Positions 16,980 to 42,030 of a DNA stretch of 64,000 nucleotides are shown here, piece by piece. Numbering within the stretch: the stretch's first letter is position 1; every line of letters begins with the position of its first letter. A program made the position numbers and the translations under genes. Source of the stretch: Engelhardtia mirabilis (GTDB taxonomy: Bacteria; Planctomycetota; UBA1135; GCA-002686595). The stretch covers positions 3,782,001 through 3,846,000 of the forward strand of contig CP036296.1 of assembly GCA_007751255.1 (NCBI GenBank), in the 5' to 3' direction. The notes under the pieces were generated by a model, which was given only the letters and a program-made list of their open reading frames with translations, was not told the origin of the DNA and did not search any database.

Positions 16980-18788
16980 GTGTCGACCAAGCCCACCCTC
17001 GACGACGCCCGGCGCGCGCTCCAAGCGCGCTTCGGGCACAGTGCCTTCCGCGCCGACCAGGAGGCCGCCATCGATGCGGTGCTCGCCGGACGCGACGTGT
17101 TGATCACCATGCCCACCGGCGGGGGCAAGTCCCTGGTCTATCAACTGCCGGCCCTGCTGCTGGATGGCTTGACCCTGGTCGTCAGCCCGCTGATCGCCCT
17201 GATGCAGGATCAGGTCGACGCCCTGCGCGCCAAGGGCATTGCCGCCAGCTTCGTCAACTCGACCCTCTCGGGCGCGGAGCGCCGCAGTCGGCTCGAGTCT
17301 GCGGCGGCCGGCAAGCTCGACCTGCTCTTCGTCACGCCCGAGCGCTTCCGCAGTCCGGTCTTCCTCGAACTGCTGCCGCGCCTTCCGATCACGCGTCTGG
17401 CCGTGGACGAGGCCCATTGCATCAGCGAGTGGGGTCACGACTTTCGGCCGGACTACTGGCGCATGGGCGACTACCGGCGCTTGATCGGCGATCCGCCGGC
17501 GGTGGCTCTGACGGCCACGGCGACGCCACGTGTGGCCGCGGACATCCGCTCGCAACTGGGCCTGCGGGACCCGCTCGTGCTGCGCTCGGGTATCGATCGC
17601 CCAGAGCTGTTCATCGGCGCCACCCCCGTCGACCGCCCCGAGGACAAGGTCCCCCACCTGGCCGCGCGCATCGCGGCGATCGACGGCCCGGGCATCGTGT
17701 ACTCGACGCTGATTCGCGACCTGGAGCACCTGCGTGACGAGCTGCGCCGGCGCGGCATCCGCAGCCTGGTCTACCACGGCAAGCTGGGTCCCGACGAGCG
17801 GCGCCGCATGCAGGCGCGCTTCATGGCCTCCGAACGCGAAGTGGTCCTGGCCACCAACGCCTTCGGCATGGGCGTCGACAAGGCCGACATCCGCTTCGTG
17901 ATGCACGCCCAGCTGCCACGCACGATCGAGGCCTGGACCCAGGAGATCGGCCGCGCCGGGCGCGACGGCGCGCCCTCCTTCTGCGAGCTGCTGCTGGACC
18001 AGGAGGACCTGGCCGTGCAGCAGAACTTCGTGCGCTGGGCCAACCCCGACCGCGAGTACCTGCTGGGGGTTTACGAGACCCTGCGGAGCTGGGGCGAGCG
18101 CAGCGCGGTCAAGGACCTGGACGACCTGCGCGACGAGCTCCTGGTGAAGCAACGCGGCGACAACCGCGTATCGATCTGCCTCAAGTGGCTGGAAGTTCTC
18201 GGCGTCACCCAAGGTGGCTTCGAGACCGGCGACCTGCGCGTGGTGCGGCACCTGGAGCCGGGCGAGCTGCCCGCCTTCGTCGGCACCGAGGAGAAGCTGC
18301 GGAGGGATCTGGAGGGCCTGCTCGGCATGTGGCAGGCGGGCGCGCGGGACGAGCGCTGCCGGCGGGTGGTGTTGGCGGAGCACTTCGACCTCGAGCAGCC
18401 CTCGACGCCCTGTGGCGCCTGCGATCGCTGCACACCCGTCGACGCGTGGATCGACGCCCATTGTTCCGCCCGGCCCGTGGATGCCGGGCCAGGCTCGGCG
18501 CCCCGGTCCGAACCTCGGTCCCAGTCCGAGTCCGAGTCCCAGTCCGAATCCGAGTCCCAGTCCGAATCCGAGTCCGAGTCCGAGAATCCGGTTGCGAGCG
18601 AATCACGGCCGCGCTTCGAGCGCGGCGACTGGGTCCGCGTGGACGGCAGGCACTTGGGCCAGGTGGTCGGGATCGAAGGCCGCGGCAAGCGCATGACCCT
18701 GCTGGTCGAGAGCGTGGGCGACTTCCGGCGCCGCAAGGTCGACCTGCGTCGACAACGGGTCGAGCGGCTGAAAGAGGGCGAATCCTGA
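16980..18788 (+). CDS. recQ: RecQ-family DNA helicase with acidic linker and SH3-like tail
   Basis: A 602-residue helicase, start GTG at 16980. Motif I MPTGGGKS (K50), motif II VDEAHCIS (D143-H146), the 'ALTATATPRV' motif and motif VI QEIGRAGRDGAPS are all present, and the zinc-binding cysteines follow at about residues 400-485 (CGACDRC). The usual HRDC domain is missing. Instead the protein ends with a serine/glutamate linker (about residues 510-545) and a 50-residue SH3/KOW-like domain (RFERGDWVRVDGRHLGQVVG). RecQ unwinds DNA 3' to 5' in recombination repair. The unusual tail may contact other proteins or nucleic acid. Confidence 0.92.
   Translation: MSTKPTLDDARRALQARFGHSAFRADQEAAIDAVLAGRDVLITMPTGGGKSLVYQLPALLLDGLTLVVSPLIALMQDQVDALRAKGIAASFVNSTLSGAERRSRLESAAAGKLDLLFVTPERFRSPVFLELLPRLPITRLAVDEAHCISEWGHDFRPDYWRMGDYRRLIGDPPAVALTATATPRVAADIRSQLGLRDPLVLRSGIDRPELFIGATPVDRPEDKVPHLAARIAAIDGPGIVYSTLIRDLEHLRDELRRRGIRSLVYHGKLGPDERRRMQARFMASEREVVLATNAFGMGVDKADIRFVMHAQLPRTIEAWTQEIGRAGRDGAPSFCELLLDQEDLAVQQNFVRWANPDREYLLGVYETLRSWGERSAVKDLDDLRDELLVKQRGDNRVSICLKWLEVLGVTQGGFETGDLRVVRHLEPGELPAFVGTEEKLRRDLEGLLGMWQAGARDERCRRVVLAEHFDLEQPSTPCGACDRCTPVDAWIDAHCSARPVDAGPGSAPRSEPRSQSESESQSESESQSESESESENPVASESRPRFERGDWVRVDGRHLGQVVGIEGRGKRMTLLVESVGDFRRRKVDLRRQRVERLKEGES
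18522..18584 (+). repeat. 18-bp in-frame tandem repeat inside recQ
   Basis: Three head-to-tail copies of an 18-base unit (CAG TCC GA(G/A) TCC GAG TCC at 18522-18539, 18540-18557 and 18558-18575) are followed by a further half-unit. They encode the serine/glutamate linker of the helicase. Because the unit is a multiple of three, copy-number change would lengthen or shorten the linker without breaking the frame. Confidence 0.9.
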
Positions 18789-18841
18789 GCGCCGAATACG
18801 ACGAAGGCCTCCGCGAGCGCCCGATCGACGACCACCGAGCC

Positions 18842-19252
18842 ATGCATCCGATCCTCCGAGTCCTCCTGGTCTTGACCGCCCTGGCCAACCTGGCCTGGGG
18901 CCTCTTTGCCCTCGGGTTGCCGGATCGGGCAGCCGAACTGCTGGGCTTCACCCTGAACAGCCCCGAGGCCCGGGGTGAGGTTCGCGCGACCTACGGGGGC
19001 CTGATCCTCGGCCTCGGCCTGGTTCAGCTCCTGGCCCTGCGCGGACCCCGGGGGCAGGCCTGGCTGGCGGCGCTCGCGCTGGTCTTCGCCGCGCTGGGAC
19101 TGGGGCGACTGTCGAGCTTGGCGCTGGACGGCCTCAGCACCTACACCGCCGGGCTCGGGGCCGTGGAAATCGGGCTCGCGCTCCTCTTGGCCATGGGCTC
19201 CCGCAGCATGGATCCCGAGACCAACCGTTCCCGGGGCGACAGCGAAGCCTAG
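18842..19252 (+). CDS. Small four-helix membrane protein (DUF4345-like)
   Basis: A 136-residue protein with four hydrophobic segments (about residues 5-25, 48-66, 72-90 and 102-120) separated by short charged loops, including the DRAAELLGF loop after the first helix. The layout and length match the DUF4345 family of small membrane proteins of unknown role. It starts at the ATG at 18842, 53 bases after recQ, in the same direction. The last codon overlaps the 12-base motif that recurs in the repeat at 62202-62364. I cannot suggest a function. Confidence 0.7.
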   Translation: MHPILRVLLVLTALANLAWGLFALGLPDRAAELLGFTLNSPEARGEVRATYGGLILGLGLVQLLALRGPRGQAWLAALALVFAALGLGRLSSLALDGLSTYTAGLGAVEIGLALLLAMGSRSMDPETNRSRGDSEA

Positions 19253-19335
19253 TGTCCTGGATGACGGAAGCCGGACCCGTCCTCGCGTCGCGCCGGCTAC
19301 CCTCTCGGAGGACCGCCCCCCGGTCCGCACCCCAC

Positions 19336-19341
19336 AAGGAG
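19336..19341 (+). promoter_or_regulatory. Shine-Dalgarno site of the thioredoxin-like selenoprotein gene
   Basis: AAGGAG lies five bases before the ATG at 19347. It is one of the clearest ribosome binding sites in the window and fixes the start of the gene with the in-frame TGA. Confidence 0.8.
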
Positions 19342-19346
19342 TCCCC

Positions 19347-20342
19347 ATGCAGCGCACAGTCATCGCAGCGATCGCGGCCATTCCCCTGGCCGCGGCTGCC
19401 TTCGCCTTCCCCGCCCCGGTCGAGGGCGTCGAGCCCGGCGACAAGGTCGAGTACAGCTTCCGGAACCCGATCGTCGGAGCCCTGGGCCAGTCGGACATGT
19501 CCGACTTCCTCGGCAAGCCCGTGCTGATCGAGTTCTGGGGCACCAGGTGACCCTCCTGCGTCGGGGGGTCCGTGCCGGCCTCCGTCAAGTTGTCGCAGGA
19601 ATTCGAAGGCGAGCTCGTGGTGCTCTTCGTCGAGAGTCAGAACACGCCCCAGCCCGAGGCGGAGCGCTTCGTCTACGAGCGCGGTTGGATGGCCGGCAAC
19701 GGCCTGTGGACCCACGAGCGGCCGTGTAGCTCGGGCAGCGGAACCCTGCCGAGCTGCGTGCTGCTCGGCATCGACGGGAAGGTCCTGATGAAGGGCAACC
19801 CGGGCAGCATCAAGAGCGACCTCGAGGACGCCATCGCCGACCAGATCGACCTGGCGAAGGAGCTGCCCGAGGGTGCGCCGAGTTCCGCCAAGAAGGCCTG
19901 GAAGGCGTTCGCGGAGCGCGACTACATGGACGCCCTCGACGGGCTGGCGAAGATCGAGGCCAAGGGCCGTGAAGACGCCGCCGGTGCCGCGCAATTGCGC
20001 GCACAGGTCGAGGCCAAGATCGACCTCGAGCTGGCCCGCATCGATCGCCTGTTGGAACTCGGCTACCCGCTCGATGCCCTGGTGCTGGCCACCGAGCTCG
20101 ATGGACTCCTCGCGGAGCACCCGACCTTCGGTCCGCGCGCTGCCGCAGCCCTGGCGATGTTCGAAGCCGAGGACCTGCAACCCGAGCTCGAGGCCGCCCA
20201 GGCGTTCGACAAGATCTACGCCAAGGTCCGCGAGGACGGAGTCGACGACTCGCGCAAGAAGCTCGAGAAGTTCGCCGAGAAGTACGCCGGCAGCAAGGCC
20301 GCCGAGCGTGCGAGCCACCTCGCATCGATCGCCAAGGACTGA
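19347..20342 (+). CDS. Thioredoxin-fold selenoprotein (UxxC), exported
   Basis: A 331-residue frame with a single in-frame TGA at 19548-19550, read here as selenocysteine. The first 22 residues are a signal peptide (AAIAAIPLAAAAFAF). A thioredoxin/TlpA-like domain follows, with strand VLIEFWGTR, then U68-P-S-C71, then VGGSVPASVKLSQEF and the strand VVLFVESQ; LPSCVLLG carries the cis-proline. The TGA sits exactly where the family has the first cysteine of CxxC, and the same frame continues for 264 codons with normal composition, no further stop and no frameshift. Residues about 180-331 are helical, charged and of unknown role. A stem-loop follows the TGA (see next entry). It would act as a periplasmic disulfide or peroxide reductase. 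If the genome lacks selA, selB, selC and selD, a nonsense mutation or sequencing error is the alternative. Confidence 0.82.
19551..19600 (+). promoter_or_regulatory. Putative bacterial SECIS element after the in-frame TGA
   Basis: Two nested stems can form directly after the TGA. The outer one pairs TCCTGCG (19554-19560) with CGCAGGA (19594-19600), seven perfect pairs. The inner one pairs GGGGGTC (19564-19570) with GGCCTCC (19577-19583), including two G-U pairs, around the six-base loop CGTGCC (19571-19576). The apical loop with a GU thus lies 21-26 bases after the TGA, inside the range known for bacterial SECIS elements that bind SelB. An alternative 8-pair hairpin (19549-19570) that starts in the TGA itself is also possible and excludes the inner stem. 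Not verified by folding or comparison. Confidence 0.55.
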
Positions 20343-20446
20343 AGCGAGCGCGACTCGAGCCCCAGAGGCCAGGACGCCTCAGATGTCTGACCGGCGCCGC
20401 CGCCCGATCCCGATCGGTCGGTGGCGTCTCCCGTTCGTGGATCCGC

Positions 20447-21349
20447 TCAGAAGCAGACGGCCAGCTCGCACACCCGCTCAGGCTCGGCGAACAGGCTCTC
20501 GAGATCCGCGGCCGAGAAGCCCAGGTGTCGCACGGCCAGGTGACCTCGCAGCTTGCTCTCGTCGCGCGACTGCGGATCGGCGGCCCAGTGGGCCAATTCG
20601 TCGGCGAGGTGCGCGACGACCGCGGCGTCGCGATGGTCGCTGATCGCGAAGGGTCGGTGATGCAGAGCCACGGCCGTGTCGAGGTGACCGGGCAGACCCC
20701 ACTCACGAACCAGCAAGGCCCCGATGTCGCAGTGCAGCTCGTCCACGACCGAGTGGAAGACGTCGGCGGGCAGGTTCTCGCCGATGGTCTTCTCCACATC
20801 GCCGAGGAGCTGGATCACGACCGGCCGCCCGACGTCGTGTAGCAGCCCCTCGAGCATTCCGGACTCGGCCAACCCGCCGCGCAGGATCGCGATGTTCTTG
20901 GCGTAGATCCCGGCGATGGCCGAGTGCAACCACAGGCGTCGGACCATCTCCGAATGGCGGCTGGAGGCCCGGAAGACCTGGTTCTTGAGCATCAACGCCA
21001 GGGCGATCTCGGACAGGGCCCTGGCCCCCAGGCGCGTCACGGCCTGCCCCACCGTTTCGATCGCAATGGTCGGCGCGTAGGCCGCCGAGTTGGAAACGCG
21101 CAGGATCCGCGCCGCCAGGGCCGGGTCGCGGGAGACGATGCCGACGACCGCCTCGACCCTGTAGTCCTCCTCGCGACAGAGTTCCAACAGGCGCACCACA
21201 CTCTGGTTGAGCACCGGCACTTCGATCTCGCCGGAGCCCAGGCCGTGCACGAGGATCTCTGAGATCTGTTCCGCCGAGGCGTCGGCGCCGAAGTCGTCGG
21301 GGATCGGGAGCATCGCAGGGGGATTCGAGTACGGATCCACCCTCCGCAT
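20447..21349 (-). CDS. HDOD-domain signalling protein
   Basis: A 300-residue protein dominated by an HDOD domain (about residues 25-250). It has the LNQSVVRLLELC entry helix, RDPALAARILRVSNSAAY, GARALSEIALALML, the GLLHDVGRPVVIQLL segment that corresponds to the HD core, and DVFHSVVDELHCDIGALL. HDOD proteins lack most metal ligands of HD phosphohydrolases and act in signal transduction and cell-cycle or motility control. The start at 21349 has a purine-rich GGGGGCGG stretch upstream; an internal ATG at 21313 is an alternative. It follows the Mla-type operon by 52 bases and may be its last gene. Confidence 0.85.
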   Translation of the reverse strand: MRRVDPYSNPPAMLPIPDDFGADASAEQISEILVHGLGSGEIEVPVLNQSVVRLLELCREEDYRVEAVVGIVSRDPALAARILRVSNSAAYAPTIAIETVGQAVTRLGARALSEIALALMLKNQVFRASSRHSEMVRRLWLHSAIAGIYAKNIAILRGGLAESGMLEGLLHDVGRPVVIQLLGDVEKTIGENLPADVFHSVVDELHCDIGALLVREWGLPGHLDTAVALHHRPFAISDHRDAAVVAHLADELAHWAADPQSRDESKLRGHLAVRHLGFSAADLESLFAEPERVCELAVCF

Positions 21350-22033: not shown

Positions 22034-23029
22034 TCAAGGTTGGCGTCCGCGCAGGAGCGACGAGGGATCGCGCTCCAACAACTCGGCCAGGCGTCGAAGC
22101 GCGCCCAGCGTCTCGCCCAACTCCGAGAGCTCCACGCGCAGATCGCGGGCCAGGAGTCGGCTCTCGTCGGTCAAGGACTCCACCGAGACGCTCGCCGCGC
22201 GAATCGCCGAGCCGGTCTCGGCCAGGTCCACCCGCGCCGCGGAGGCCGCCTCGCGCGCATCGACCACCGCCGGCCCGAGGGGCTCGAGCGCGGTCGAGAC
22301 CTGCGCCGTGAGCGCGCGCACGTCCTCCACCGCCAGGCGCAGGTCCCCGACCAGCTGCGCGGTCTCCAGGGCGCTCAGGTCCTGGGCCAGGTCCCGGACC
22401 GCGCCCAGGGTCGCGCGAGTGTCGGCCCCGATGGACTCGACGTCGAGGCTCTCGAGCGCGCCGTCCAAGCGGTTGACCAGGTCGTTGGTCGACTTGAGCA
22501 GCTCCGGCATCGAGTCGAGGGTCTCGGCCAGGGTGCTGCCGAGGGACGCGAGGGTCGACTCGGTGCTCGGCACGTGGTTCCAGGGCACGGTGAAGTCGTA
22601 GACGGGCTCTGGCATGCGCTCGGTGTCGAACACGTCGGCCTCGAGGTAGGCGATGCCCGTGATCCCCGAGCGCGAGAGCTGCACCCGCAGGCCCTCGATC
22701 TCGAAGTTCAAGCCGGTGCTGACGGTCGGCAGTTGCTCGAGCAAGCCCAGGCTCTTGACCGTCTCGAAGAAGATCTCGCTGGTCACGGCCACGTCGGTGC
22801 GGTTGGGCGCGAAGCCGATCTTCTCCACCCGCCCCAGGGTCACCCCGCGGTACTTGACCGGCGACCCCACGTCGAGCCCCTCGACCGACTCGCCGAAGTA
22901 GCTGACCACTTCGAAGGTCTCGCGCGAGATCCGCTCGGCCCCGAAGTAGGTCAAGGCACCGAAGCCCATGGCGGCCGATCCCACTACGAACAGGCCCAGT
23001 TTCCAGTGGTTGGCGGGATTGACGATCAT
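22034..23029 (-). CDS. mlaD: MCE-family lipid-binding protein (MlaD-like)
   Basis: A 331-residue protein with one N-terminal membrane segment (LGLFVVGSAAMGFGALTYFG), an MCE domain at about residues 40-125 (SPVKYRGVTLGRVEKIGF is typical) and a long helical C-terminus, as in proteins that build a periplasmic lipid tunnel. Such proteins form a hexamer on the MlaE permease and hand phospholipid across the periplasm. The start at 23029 overlaps the upstream ATPase gene by four bases. The gene symbol rests on the operon and domain, and PqiB or LetB-like roles are equally possible. Confidence 0.85.
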   Translation of the reverse strand: MIVNPANHWKLGLFVVGSAAMGFGALTYFGAERISRETFEVVSYFGESVEGLDVGSPVKYRGVTLGRVEKIGFAPNRTDVAVTSEIFFETVKSLGLLEQLPTVSTGLNFEIEGLRVQLSRSGITGIAYLEADVFDTERMPEPVYDFTVPWNHVPSTESTLASLGSTLAETLDSMPELLKSTNDLVNRLDGALESLDVESIGADTRATLGAVRDLAQDLSALETAQLVGDLRLAVEDVRALTAQVSTALEPLGPAVVDAREAASAARVDLAETGSAIRAASVSVESLTDESRLLARDLRVELSELGETLGALRRLAELLERDPSSLLRGRQP

Positions 23030-23820
23030 GGCTGGACTTGCGCGGGCTGGGCGTCCGACTGGCTCGACCGAAGAGAATGCTCGGCGTGGAAGAAGGCGCG
23101 CACCCGCGGATCCTTGGACTTGTCGCGCAGGACGGTGGGACGACCGCGGGCCACGATGCCCTTCGTATCGCGGTGGAGCAACACGCAGTCGGTGCCGATC
23201 CGATAGACGCTCTGCAGCTCGTGGGTCACGATCACGACGGTGATCCCCAGGTTCCGGTTGAGGGTCAGGATCAGATCGTCCAAGGCCGCGCTCGTGACCG
23301 GATCCAGACCGGCCGACGGCTCGTCCAGGAATAGCAGCGGCGCCTCGAGGGCGATCGCCCGGGCGATGCCGGCGCGCTTCTTCATGCCGCCCGAGAGCTC
23401 CGCCGGAAGGTGGTTCTCGTAGGACTCCAGACCCACCAGGCGCAGCTTGGCGCGGGCGATGGTCTCGATCGCCCGCGGGTCCAGATCGGTCCAGCGCCGC
23501 AGGGGCAGAGCCACGTTCTCGAGCACCGTCATCGAGCCGAACAGCGCCGCCGATTGGAACAGGACTCCCAGCCGCGGCGCCTCCGGAGGCAGGTACGGGT
23601 CGGGCTCGACGCGCATGATGACCTCGCCCGACATCGGCCGGTCCAGACCGATCAGGGCGCGCAACAGGGTCGACTTGCCCGTGCCGCTGCCCCCCAGCAC
23701 GCACAGGACCGCGCCCCGCTCCACGGGCAGGTAGAGGTCCTCGAGAATCGGCACACCGCCCCAGCCGACAGTCAGTCGGCGGGCCTCGAGGATCGGGGGC
23801 GGTCGTTGGTCGACGTCCAA
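23026..23820 (-). CDS. mlaF: Mla-type lipid-transport ABC ATPase
   Basis: A 264-residue ATPase with Walker A GGSGTGKST (about residues 44-52), a Q-loop (VLFQSAALFGSMTV), the signature LSGGMKKR, Walker B LLFLDEPSAGLD and the H-loop in VTHEL. The GGMKKR signature form and SAALFGSMTV are typical of MlaF-type ATPases. It powers the permease encoded 3 bases upstream. The likely start is a TTG at 23820. It overlaps the MCE gene by four bases, so the two are coupled in translation. Confidence 0.9.
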   Translation of the reverse strand: MDVDQRPPPILEARRLTVGWGGVPILEDLYLPVERGAVLCVLGGSGTGKSTLLRALIGLDRPMSGEVIMRVEPDPYLPPEAPRLGVLFQSAALFGSMTVLENVALPLRRWTDLDPRAIETIARAKLRLVGLESYENHLPAELSGGMKKRAGIARAIALEAPLLFLDEPSAGLDPVTSAALDDLILTLNRNLGITVVIVTHELQSVYRIGTDCVLLHRDTKGIVARGRPTVLRDKSKDPRVRAFFHAEHSLRSSQSDAQPAQVQP

Positions 23821-23823
23821 GGC

Positions 23824-25044
23824 TCAGATTCCGTAGATCCGGAAGACCCAGGTCAGGGCCGCGTCGAGCAGTACCAGGTGGAAGATCGTGGTGACGACCG
23901 CCGACGTCGTGCTGCGCCCCACGCCCTCGGCTCCGCCGCTGGTGGCCAGCCCGCGCTGGCACGCTATGGCCGCGATCACCATGGCAAAGAGCACCGACTT
24001 GATCAGCCCGCCGAGGATGTCGAGGCCGCCCACGGCGCTGAGCGTCTCGTTCCAATAACTGATCAGGGTCAAGTCGAGCACGTAGATGCCGACCACCAGC
24101 CCGCCCAGGAGCCCCACGCCGTCCGCCATCAGGGTCAAGAGCGGCAGGGTCAGGATCAAGGCGATGAAGCGCGGCGCGACCAGGAAGCGGTAGGGCGACA
24201 TGCCCAGGGTGCGCAGTGCGTCGACCTCCTCGGAGACTCGCATGGTGCCGAGCTCGGCTGCGAAGGCGGCGCCGGACCGGCCGGCCACGATGATCGCGGT
24301 CATCAAGGGACCCAGCTCCCGCACCACCGACAGGCCGACCAGGTCCGCCACGAGGATCTCGGCGCCGAAGCGCTCGAGCTGGCCGGAGGCTTGGAAGGCG
24401 AGGATCAGGCCCACCAGAAAGTTGATCGCCGCCACGATCGGCAAGGCGTCCGCGCCGTGGCGTTCGGCCAGTCGGACGACGTTGCCCCAGGGCACCGTAC
24501 GCGGCGTGCGGATCGCGAGGCGCGCCTCCGCGACCAACGTCCCGATGTAGTCCGCCGCCTCACCGAGCTTGCCGAGCAGATCGTCGACCGCCGCGCCCAC
24601 CTGCTCGAAGAGGCCTACACGAGCCGGCGGGGCCTTGTCGCTGGGCTTGGGTGGGTGGGCCCCGTAGAGCTCGAGCAGACCGCGCACCTTGCCGGTCGCG
24701 CCCACGATCTCGCCCTCGGCCCCGCGCTCGCGCAGGTCGCCAATCAACTGGATCAACAGCGCCGCGCTGCCGCCGTCCATGCCCCGCACCCCGGACAGGT
24801 CGAGCTCGTAGTGACCGACCGGGCCGTCCTCGACCATCGACCGAACCCGGCGCCATGAGCGGTAGCAGGCCTGGAAGCGCAGCTCCCCTTCGAAGCGCAG
24901 CCGACGACTGCTGCCGCCGGTGCCGTCCTCGAGACGAACAGTGAAGGGCGGACCGAAGCTCGGGATGCCCGCGCCTGTCTCTCCCTCGACCCCTTGCGGG
25001 GGGCCGCTCCCGGGGTCAGCGGTCGTCGTTCTCCGCCGTTCCAC
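23824..25044 (-). CDS. mlaE: MlaE permease with fused N-terminal STAS domain
   Basis: A 406-residue protein. Residues about 40-140 form an anti-sigma-factor-antagonist (STAS) domain like MlaB, with HYELDLSGVRGMDGGSAALL where the STAS serine loop lies. The rest is a MlaE/YrbE permease with five or six membrane helices and the family motifs FQASGQLERFGAEILVADL and MRVSEEVDALRTLGMSPYRF. In Escherichia coli, MlaB and MlaE are separate; here the regulator is fused to the permease. The GTG start at 25044 overlaps the upstream gene by 29 bases. With the ATPase and MCE genes it forms an inner-membrane lipid transporter. Confidence 0.9.
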   Translation of the reverse strand: MERRRTTTADPGSGPPQGVEGETGAGIPSFGPPFTVRLEDGTGGSSRRLRFEGELRFQACYRSWRRVRSMVEDGPVGHYELDLSGVRGMDGGSAALLIQLIGDLRERGAEGEIVGATGKVRGLLELYGAHPPKPSDKAPPARVGLFEQVGAAVDDLLGKLGEAADYIGTLVAEARLAIRTPRTVPWGNVVRLAERHGADALPIVAAINFLVGLILAFQASGQLERFGAEILVADLVGLSVVRELGPLMTAIIVAGRSGAAFAAELGTMRVSEEVDALRTLGMSPYRFLVAPRFIALILTLPLLTLMADGVGLLGGLVVGIYVLDLTLISYWNETLSAVGGLDILGGLIKSVLFAMVIAAIACQRGLATSGGAEGVGRSTTSAVVTTIFHLVLLDAALTWVFRIYGI

Positions 25045-41173: not shown

Positions 41174-42030
41174 CAGACGTACATCGCCATCTGGAGCCGG
41201 CGGCGGTAGCTGTGGGCCAGGTCGCTCGACGAGCCGAGGGAGTCGAGCACCTCGACCATCGCTCGGCGGGCGGCCTGCTCGTTGTACTCGCGGTCGATCT
41301 CGATCGTCTCGAGCAGCAGGTCGAGACCCTCCTCCACTCGCCCGACACTGGCCAGAGCCCGTCCGTAGGCGATGCGCGCGTCGAGATCCTTCTCGTTCTG
41401 GGCCGCGGCCGCCAGGGCCGTGAGGTCCACGGCTTGCTCCTGCGCCAGGGCCAGGCGCGCGCGCAGGGCCCGCGCCTCGGCGCCCTCGGCAACGGACGGC
41501 GGCAGTGCGTCGAGCAGCCCGATCGCGCGCGCGCTGTCGCCAGCCTCCAGGGCGGCGCGAGCCAGCAGCAGCTTGACCTCGTCGTCGTCGGGGCGATCGG
41601 CGAAGAGGCCCTCGAGCATGGCCACCGCTCCTGCGGCGTCACCGGCCTCGAGCGCGGCCCGCGCGGGCTCCAGGGGATCTTCCACCGGACCGACGTGGGG
41701 CTCCAGGAAGCGACGGATCTCGGCCTCGGGCAGGGCGCCGACGAAGCCGTCGGCCGGCCGGCCGTCGATCACGAGCACGACTGTGGGGATGCTCTGCACC
41801 TGGAAGGCGGCGGCCAGCTCCTGCTCCTTCTCGGTGTCGACCTTGGCCAACACGAAGGCCCCGTTCAGCTCGACGGCGAGGTTCTCGAGGATCGGCCCGA
41901 GCGTCTTGCACGGCCCACACCACTCGGCCCAGAAGTCCACCAGGACCGGCACCGTCTTGGAGCGCTCGACGACCTCGAGCGCGAAGTTGGAGACGCCGAC
42001 GTCGACGACGTGGGGAGAGGCACTGGGCAT
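41173..42030 (-). CDS. Thioredoxin with C-terminal TPR domain (YbbN-like)
   Basis: A 285-residue protein. The thioredoxin domain (about residues 1-110) has DFWAEWCGPC with C38 and C41 and a cis-proline in VQSIPTVVLV. The C-terminal half is made of TPR helices (for example LEAGDSARAIGLLDALPP). The order matches the YbbN/CnoX co-chaperone family, which holds oxidatively unfolded proteins and passes them to chaperones. It is cytoplasmic, as no signal peptide is seen. It differs from the periplasmic UxxC protein at 19347, which has a signal peptide. Confidence 0.9.
   Translation of the reverse strand: MPSASPHVVDVGVSNFALEVVERSKTVPVLVDFWAEWCGPCKTLGPILENLAVELNGAFVLAKVDTEKEQELAAAFQVQSIPTVVLVIDGRPADGFVGALPEAEIRRFLEPHVGPVEDPLEPARAALEAGDAAGAVAMLEGLFADRPDDDEVKLLLARAALEAGDSARAIGLLDALPPSVAEGAEARALRARLALAQEQAVDLTALAAAAQNEKDLDARIAYGRALASVGRVEEGLDLLLETIEIDREYNEQAARRAMVEVLDSLGSSSDLAHSYRRRLQMAMYV

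Follow-up and report, generated by a model that had tools for sequence, protein, structure and literature searches.

Selenoproteins of the UxxC type, in which a thioredoxin/TlpA-like protein carries selenocysteine (Sec, U) at the active site, have been catalogued before, so the kind is known. As excerpted, PMC13188914 places a UxxC thiol-disulfide isomerase-like selenoprotein in cd02966 and PMC9312934 places it in PF13905; both list thiol-disulfide isomerase-like and redoxin-family selenoproteins, to which PMC13188914 adds UGC-TlpA, and an excerpt of PMC4807772 reports selenoproteins in two other planctomycetes. These catalogued UxxC thiol-disulfide isomerase-like and Redoxin family proteins have in common with the protein analysed here a TlpA/ResA-like fold in which Sec occupies the first redox position and Cys the second, but the excerpted tables, compared by description only, name a kind and not this particular family, and the excerpts contain no mention of a C-terminal region. 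Two NCBIfam models are also pertinent: NF041382 (VPGUxxT family thioredoxin-like (seleno)protein, type 1; 349 positions) and NF041054 (ResA-like WAxxUGC motif-containing protein; 354 positions). The ResA, TlpA and DsbE families share the domain and a CxxC-type site, although with Cys in place of Sec, and their chains, among the matches listed, have about 140–190 residues and lack the C-terminal region described below. Export and a cis-proline are features of these families that they would have in common with our protein.

The window, that is, the whole stretch of 64,000 nucleotides analysed here, contains a gene that very probably encodes a thioredoxin-fold protein with Sec at residue 68. Read with TGA as a residue, the frame 19347–20342 contains one internal TGA, at codon 68 and within the motif EFWGTR-U-PSC, and its terminal stop is also TGA. 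Translation thus confirms the single in-frame TGA in WGTR-U-PSC from which the preliminary description started, and the ribosome site that it placed before the gene corresponds to AAGGAG. The features of the locus are as follows:

19336..19341, + strand: AAGGAG, ribosome-binding-site-like, 5 nt before the ATG (from the sequence).
19347..20342, + strand: coding sequence of the very probable selenoprotein, 331 residues plus stop, with a signal-like N-terminus, a thioredoxin/TlpA-ResA-like domain and a probably helical C-terminal region.
19347..19412, + strand: hydrophobic, signal-peptide-like segment, about residues 1–22 (from hydropathy only).
19431..19856, + strand: thioredoxin/TlpA-ResA-like domain, about residues 29–170 (domain and PDB profile matches).
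19548..19550, + strand: TGA of codon 68, most likely read as Sec, which would be the first redox residue in U-P-S-C (homologue comparison).
19557..19559, + strand: Cys71, second redox residue of UxxC (Cys in 61/61 TGA rows).
19564..19583, + strand: SECIS-like hairpin with a 7-bp stem, GGGGGUC/GGCCUCC, and the apical loop CGUGCC (SECIS model scan and covariation).
19749..19751, + strand: Pro135, candidate cis-proline (nearly invariant in 28 rows).
19872..20339, + strand: C-terminal region, residues 176–331, A/E/K/L-rich, without cysteine, probably helical (alignment and composition).

We searched 101 related genomes, at least 90 of which gave a match, and aligned 73 homologues (72 of them different), comprising 33 loci (L014–L046) and 40 taken from the matches listed, best first; rows without an internal stop were included, and L047–L051 (five of eight loci, with short or weak matches) were left out. 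Because of this choice of best matches first, and of the inclusion of no-stop rows, the proportion of TGA rows should not be taken as unbiased: the column of residue 68 contains TGA in 61 rows, Cys in 6, Gln in 3, Thr in 2 and Ala in 1, with neither TAA nor TAG among the 73 homologues. Three positions downstream there is Cys in 67/73 homologues, including all 61 TGA rows; the window protein has two more cysteines, but the TGA rows do not keep these, which leaves U68-C71 as the conserved redox pair. In a 28-row alignment, a hand-picked spread of the 73 homologues, the sequences align on both sides of the TGA and up to the end of the gene, and P135 is at least 90% invariant. The preliminary description had located the TGA at the first catalytic cysteine and considered the second cysteine and the cis-proline intact, and the homologues bear this out, with P135 as the candidate for the latter. 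Judged from these sequences, the conservation of the TGA column is far beyond chance.

The TGA rows fall into two subfamilies. Subfamily A (WGxx-U-xxC, then VP) has 51 TGA rows, including the window protein, and subfamily B (mostly WATW-U-GPC) has 10, among them a paralogue from the same genome (C1:2717054) that is 29% identical to the window protein. In a quick IQ-TREE tree, with modest support at deep forks, the window protein belongs to an all-U clade of 42 rows (support 85, not starred), whose members, among the matches listed, are 31–43% identical to it; an all-TGA clade at this level of identity excludes an assembly error or a pseudogene. Both a resequencing change at the TGA and a lack of relatives with Cys or Sec at the site had been named beforehand as what would speak against the selenoprotein reading; dozens of relatives from other genomes share the TGA at that column, and 61 rows with U and 6 with C were found among the 73. 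The U/C/other label needs 7 changes on the same tree, and some Cys rows are nested in U groups, which suggests losses of Sec within the family. Six further homologues (L067, L070, L071, L072, L073 and L085) have A, T or Q at the first redox site and no Cys at the second, while the remainder of the protein is kept; from their sequences they are possible non-catalytic paralogues.

The window protein alone is below every Pfam and NCBIfam cut-off, with Redoxin and ResA as its best matches, and no NCBIfam model is over its cut-off for this protein or for the seven relatives analysed in detail. Of the 28 rows, 18 have a Redoxin match at E 0.01, 16 an AhpC-TSA match and 23 a ResA match, and general Pfam redoxin models reach some of the relatives (best E 6.9e-19). 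NF041382 is similar in length and matches 14/28 rows at E ≤0.01, but the window protein, with the motif UPSC and not VPGUxxT, obtains 10.4 bits against a cut-off of 350, over residues 276–327 only; no protein from its own genome is over that cut-off. Likewise, NF041054 shares the ResA-like domain and matches 7/28 rows at E ≤0.01, although the scores stay below its cut-off of 300 bits (38.4 bits or less in the rows analysed in detail) and its name specifies UGC, whereas the window protein has UxxC; in the own genome it matches five places, none over the cut-off and the window gene not among them. Literature word searches, limited to open-licence PMC papers and hence giving a weak absence, found no description of this planctomycete family. 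The novelty initially attributed to the gene was overstated, because the UxxC kind appears in Table 1 of PMC13188914, as excerpted, and part of the family is distantly related to NF041382 and NF041054. We regard the protein as a robust, apparently uncatalogued member of an already known kind of selenoprotein.

The window belongs to a genome of 6.95 Mb in 2 contigs, with a completeness of 90.5, that encodes the machinery for Sec. Its tRNA-Sec scores 70 bits versus a gathering score of 47, and ARAGORN reads it with anticodon tca; SelB scores 313 bits (cut-off 242), with its C-terminal end matched separately as well, and SelA 461 bits. SelD (318 bits) contains one TGA of its own, in the context CAG-U-AAK, in agreement with the UxxK motif that Table 1 of PMC13188914, as excerpted, assigns to SelD. 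The presence of Sec machinery in the genome had been suggested as a check, and tRNA-Sec, SelA, SelB and SelD are all there. SelA is present in 96/101 related genomes, and in 46/46 of those with completeness of at least 90% and contamination of at most 5%; the five genomes without it have completeness values of 64–80%.

In the window, the loop of the SECIS-like hairpin begins 20 nt after the UGA and has G at its second position, followed by U. The bSECIS model in the excerpt of PMC13188914 specifies a loop of 3–9 nt, at least 4 bp, G in the first two loop positions, a distance of 16–37 nt from the UGA and an energy of ≤−7.5; the window hairpin agrees with it, having a loop of 6 nt whose second position is G, a stem of 7 bp, a distance of 20 nt and an energy of −9.9 kcal/mol. 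Nevertheless, 18% of its own 60 synonymous shuffles reach this energy, so that the lone sequence is no proof and it is the comparison across relatives that provides it. Folded freely, this part of the window does not stand out (z −0.43) and favours a competing hairpin that includes part of the UGA; we rejected this RNAfold hairpin because the later stem is the one that covaries across relatives. A scan of Rfam over 18500–21000 gave 0 matches.

The apical loop, CGUGCC in most of the 51 A rows and with GGU in seven, is separated from the UGA by 20 nt, a distance that a codon deletion shortens to 17 nt in two rows. The 50 distinct rows form on average 6.42 of 8 standard pairs, versus 3.44 (sd 0.16) when codons are swapped for synonymous codons of the same gene, an excess (z 18.5, 2000 shuffles) that is inflated by relatedness because the shuffles treat rows as independent. 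For covariation we used 48 of the 51 A rows, dropping L044, identical to L028, as well as L055 and L062, which have a one-codon deletion before the hairpin and keep 7 of its 8 pairs. In this set 79.9% of stem cells are paired, each of the 8 pairs shows two-sided changes (shuffles average 5.4, and 3/500 reach 8) and covariation is 0.407, compared to 0.065–0.187 when the partner is slid by 1–3 columns, a control that preserves relatedness. The outermost pair is formed in only 13/48 rows, and RNAalifold, unprompted, recovered six of the pairs of the hairpin. Hairpins of ≤−7.5 kcal/mol occur in 38/51 A rows, 7/10 B rows, 0/6 Cys rows (one of which gets to −7.0 kcal/mol) and 1/6 other rows, and the rows that beat their own synonymous shuffles at 0.05 are 27/51 for A, 6/10 for B, none for Cys and one for the others. 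The mechanical SECIS scan fails for 13/51 A rows and 3/10 B rows, which may be explained in part by its permitting no bulge or mismatch. The B set is less uniform, with five hairpins at 17 nt and two at 33 nt from the UGA.

These results bear on how the TGA is read. If it were a true stop, the gene would be a pseudogene, an assembly error or two genes, a 67-residue stub and a 256-aa ORF from the GTG at 19572, which is indeed where the mechanical ORF begins; yet the TGA is kept at one column in 61/73 homologues with conserved sequence on both sides, and Cys71, which precedes this GTG, is Cys in all 61 U rows. We rejected the true stop, the two-gene reading and the pseudogene on this conservation and regard their probability as practically negligible. 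Recoding of the TGA by another tRNA, such as one for Trp or Cys, would be compatible with the fact that Sec in the protein is deduced from sequence evidence. It is nevertheless very improbable, given the tRNA-Sec and Sec genes of the genome, the Cys homologues at the site and the covarying hairpin downstream, and we rejected it, as the gene also ends in TGA. Together, the Sec genes, the homologues with TGA or Cys and the covarying SECIS-like hairpin support the original proposal of a likely selenoprotein. The parts for decoding are thus present, and Sec would be inserted at residue 68 if SelB with Sec-tRNA-Sec docks on the hairpin at 19564–19583, so that the UGA at 19548–19550 is decoded as Sec68.

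Comparison of the 28-row profile with the PDB (best 60 of 177 matches, which include ResA, TlpA and DsbE chains) retrieved as best match the redoxin domain protein 28db (positions 51–165, E 1.9e-22), followed by the putative thiol-disulfide oxidoreductase 2lja; the ResA chains 4nmu (23–151, E 2.2e-17) and 1st9 (46–160, E 7.6e-16) were also matched. The matches to redoxin and ResA chains agree with the thioredoxin/TlpA-like fold that had been assigned to the protein. Residues 176–331 consist of 63% A/E/K/L/Q/R/M, without Cys, and are probably helical. The earlier remark that this extension was undescribed needs correcting, since it is related to the C-terminal half of NF041382: in three B-subfamily rows, residues about 183–331 match positions about 194–349 of that model (E 1.8e-4, 1.2e-6 and 3e-10), so the extension is not without relatives; four other rows analysed in detail gave no NF041382 match at E 0.001. 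With start codons chosen by script, 59/61 TGA rows have a hydrophobic N-terminus and none of the 61 has a lipobox-like motif, a pattern consistent with export through a cleaved signal peptide. This is in line with the exported protein proposed earlier, and we infer that the window protein is exported.

The UxxC motif with an intact second Cys, the ResA/TlpA-like domain and the export signal argue for thiol-disulfide exchange in the envelope. If the TGA is read as Sec, a disulfide reductase of the TlpA/ResA type is the function we consider reasonably likely, probably working in the reducing direction. The protein would leave the cytoplasm via its N-terminal signal; in the envelope, Sec68 would be the nucleophile and Cys71 the resolving residue of a UxxC thiol-disulfide reductase, which a membrane thiol donor would recharge, and the C-terminal region may serve for binding of substrates or partners. 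The main rival, which concerns the function only, is a selenoprotein whose main substrates are peroxides or methionine sulfoxide, or one that works as an oxidase or isomerase. Sec suits peroxide chemistry, the best Pfam hits are Redoxin and AhpC-TSA and a redoxin domain protein heads the PDB matches; however, peroxiredoxins keep TxxC-type sites, the UxxC with its second Cys is intact in 61/61 U rows and the later PDB matches are thiol-disulfide oxidoreductases, ResA and DsbE. On balance, we consider this rival rather unlikely.

Searching the own genome of the window with the 28-row profile gave 8 matches: those at C1:3801347, 2717048 and 168720 are full or nearly full and have TGA, and the others are one nearly full without TGA (C1:2719844), one limited to the thioredoxin part with TGA (C1:780766) and three further weak ones without TGA. 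The TGA is in UGPC at C1:168720-169496 (L154), C1:2717048-2718013 (L052) and C1:780766-781149 (L157), and these further thioredoxin-fold genes indicate that the genome probably has several Sec-thioredoxins, as predicted from sequence. The member without internal stop (C1:2719844-2720692) lies about 2 kb from the TGA paralogue C1:2717048. A weak match at C1:819805-819960 (L155) has TGA in SG-U-AGC, with UxxC spacing and a family score of only 14 bits, and another weak thioredoxin-like match (E 9e-5) lies in the window at 41821-41949 (−), equivalent to G000:C1:3823821-3823949, inside an open frame of 1041 aa.

A four-row profile gave some match in at least 352 of 392 genomes drawn from the phylum. 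From the matches listed we chose 20 loci by hand, not at random, in genomes outside the order of the window; 15 of them have TGA at the motif and 5 do not, three of the latter showing Cys in WxxCxxC, in one case with a TAA or TAG within the matched stretch. TGA is likewise present in each of four additional loci, L111, L113, L121 and L126. By sequence, the family extends to genomes outside the order of the window; plasmid records gave no match. In one genome, two adjoining divergent members occur at G257:C34:18197-19147 (−) and 19510-20469 (+), one with TGA and the other without internal stop.

Among 18 loci, of up to 16 kb each, 17 share the selenoprotein gene itself, and the most widely conserved same-strand adjacent ORF is found in 4; by eye, the latter resembles NAD(P)H-hydrate epimerase. 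Two clusters of 9 loci consist for the most part of frames antisense to the selenoprotein gene. The gene neighbourhood is thus not conserved and gives no hint of the function. In the window, positions 22034-25044 (−) contain consecutive genes that, by eye, we take to resemble a lipid transport set of the MlaE/MlaF/MlaD type.

With no NCBIfam model over its cut-off and Pfam redoxin models silent on Sec, ordinary gene calling will tend to truncate such genes at the TGA or to begin them downstream of the active site. The family is well supported, worth a family model and moderately surprising, and its covarying hairpins are a useful set for SECIS work in planctomycetes. Tentatively, and with somewhat less than even confidence, we propose that these exported Sec-thioredoxins constitute a large family, uncatalogued and widespread in Planctomycetota, that has a C-terminal domain of its own; Sec would prevail in it and might be ancestral, several copies per genome would coexist with Cys copies, some paralogues would have lost the redox residues and turned into non-catalytic partners, and the family would be a main consumer of selenium in the envelope. 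Its Sec, Cys and site-less versions of one protein form a natural set for asking why Sec is kept in the thiol chemistry of the envelope.
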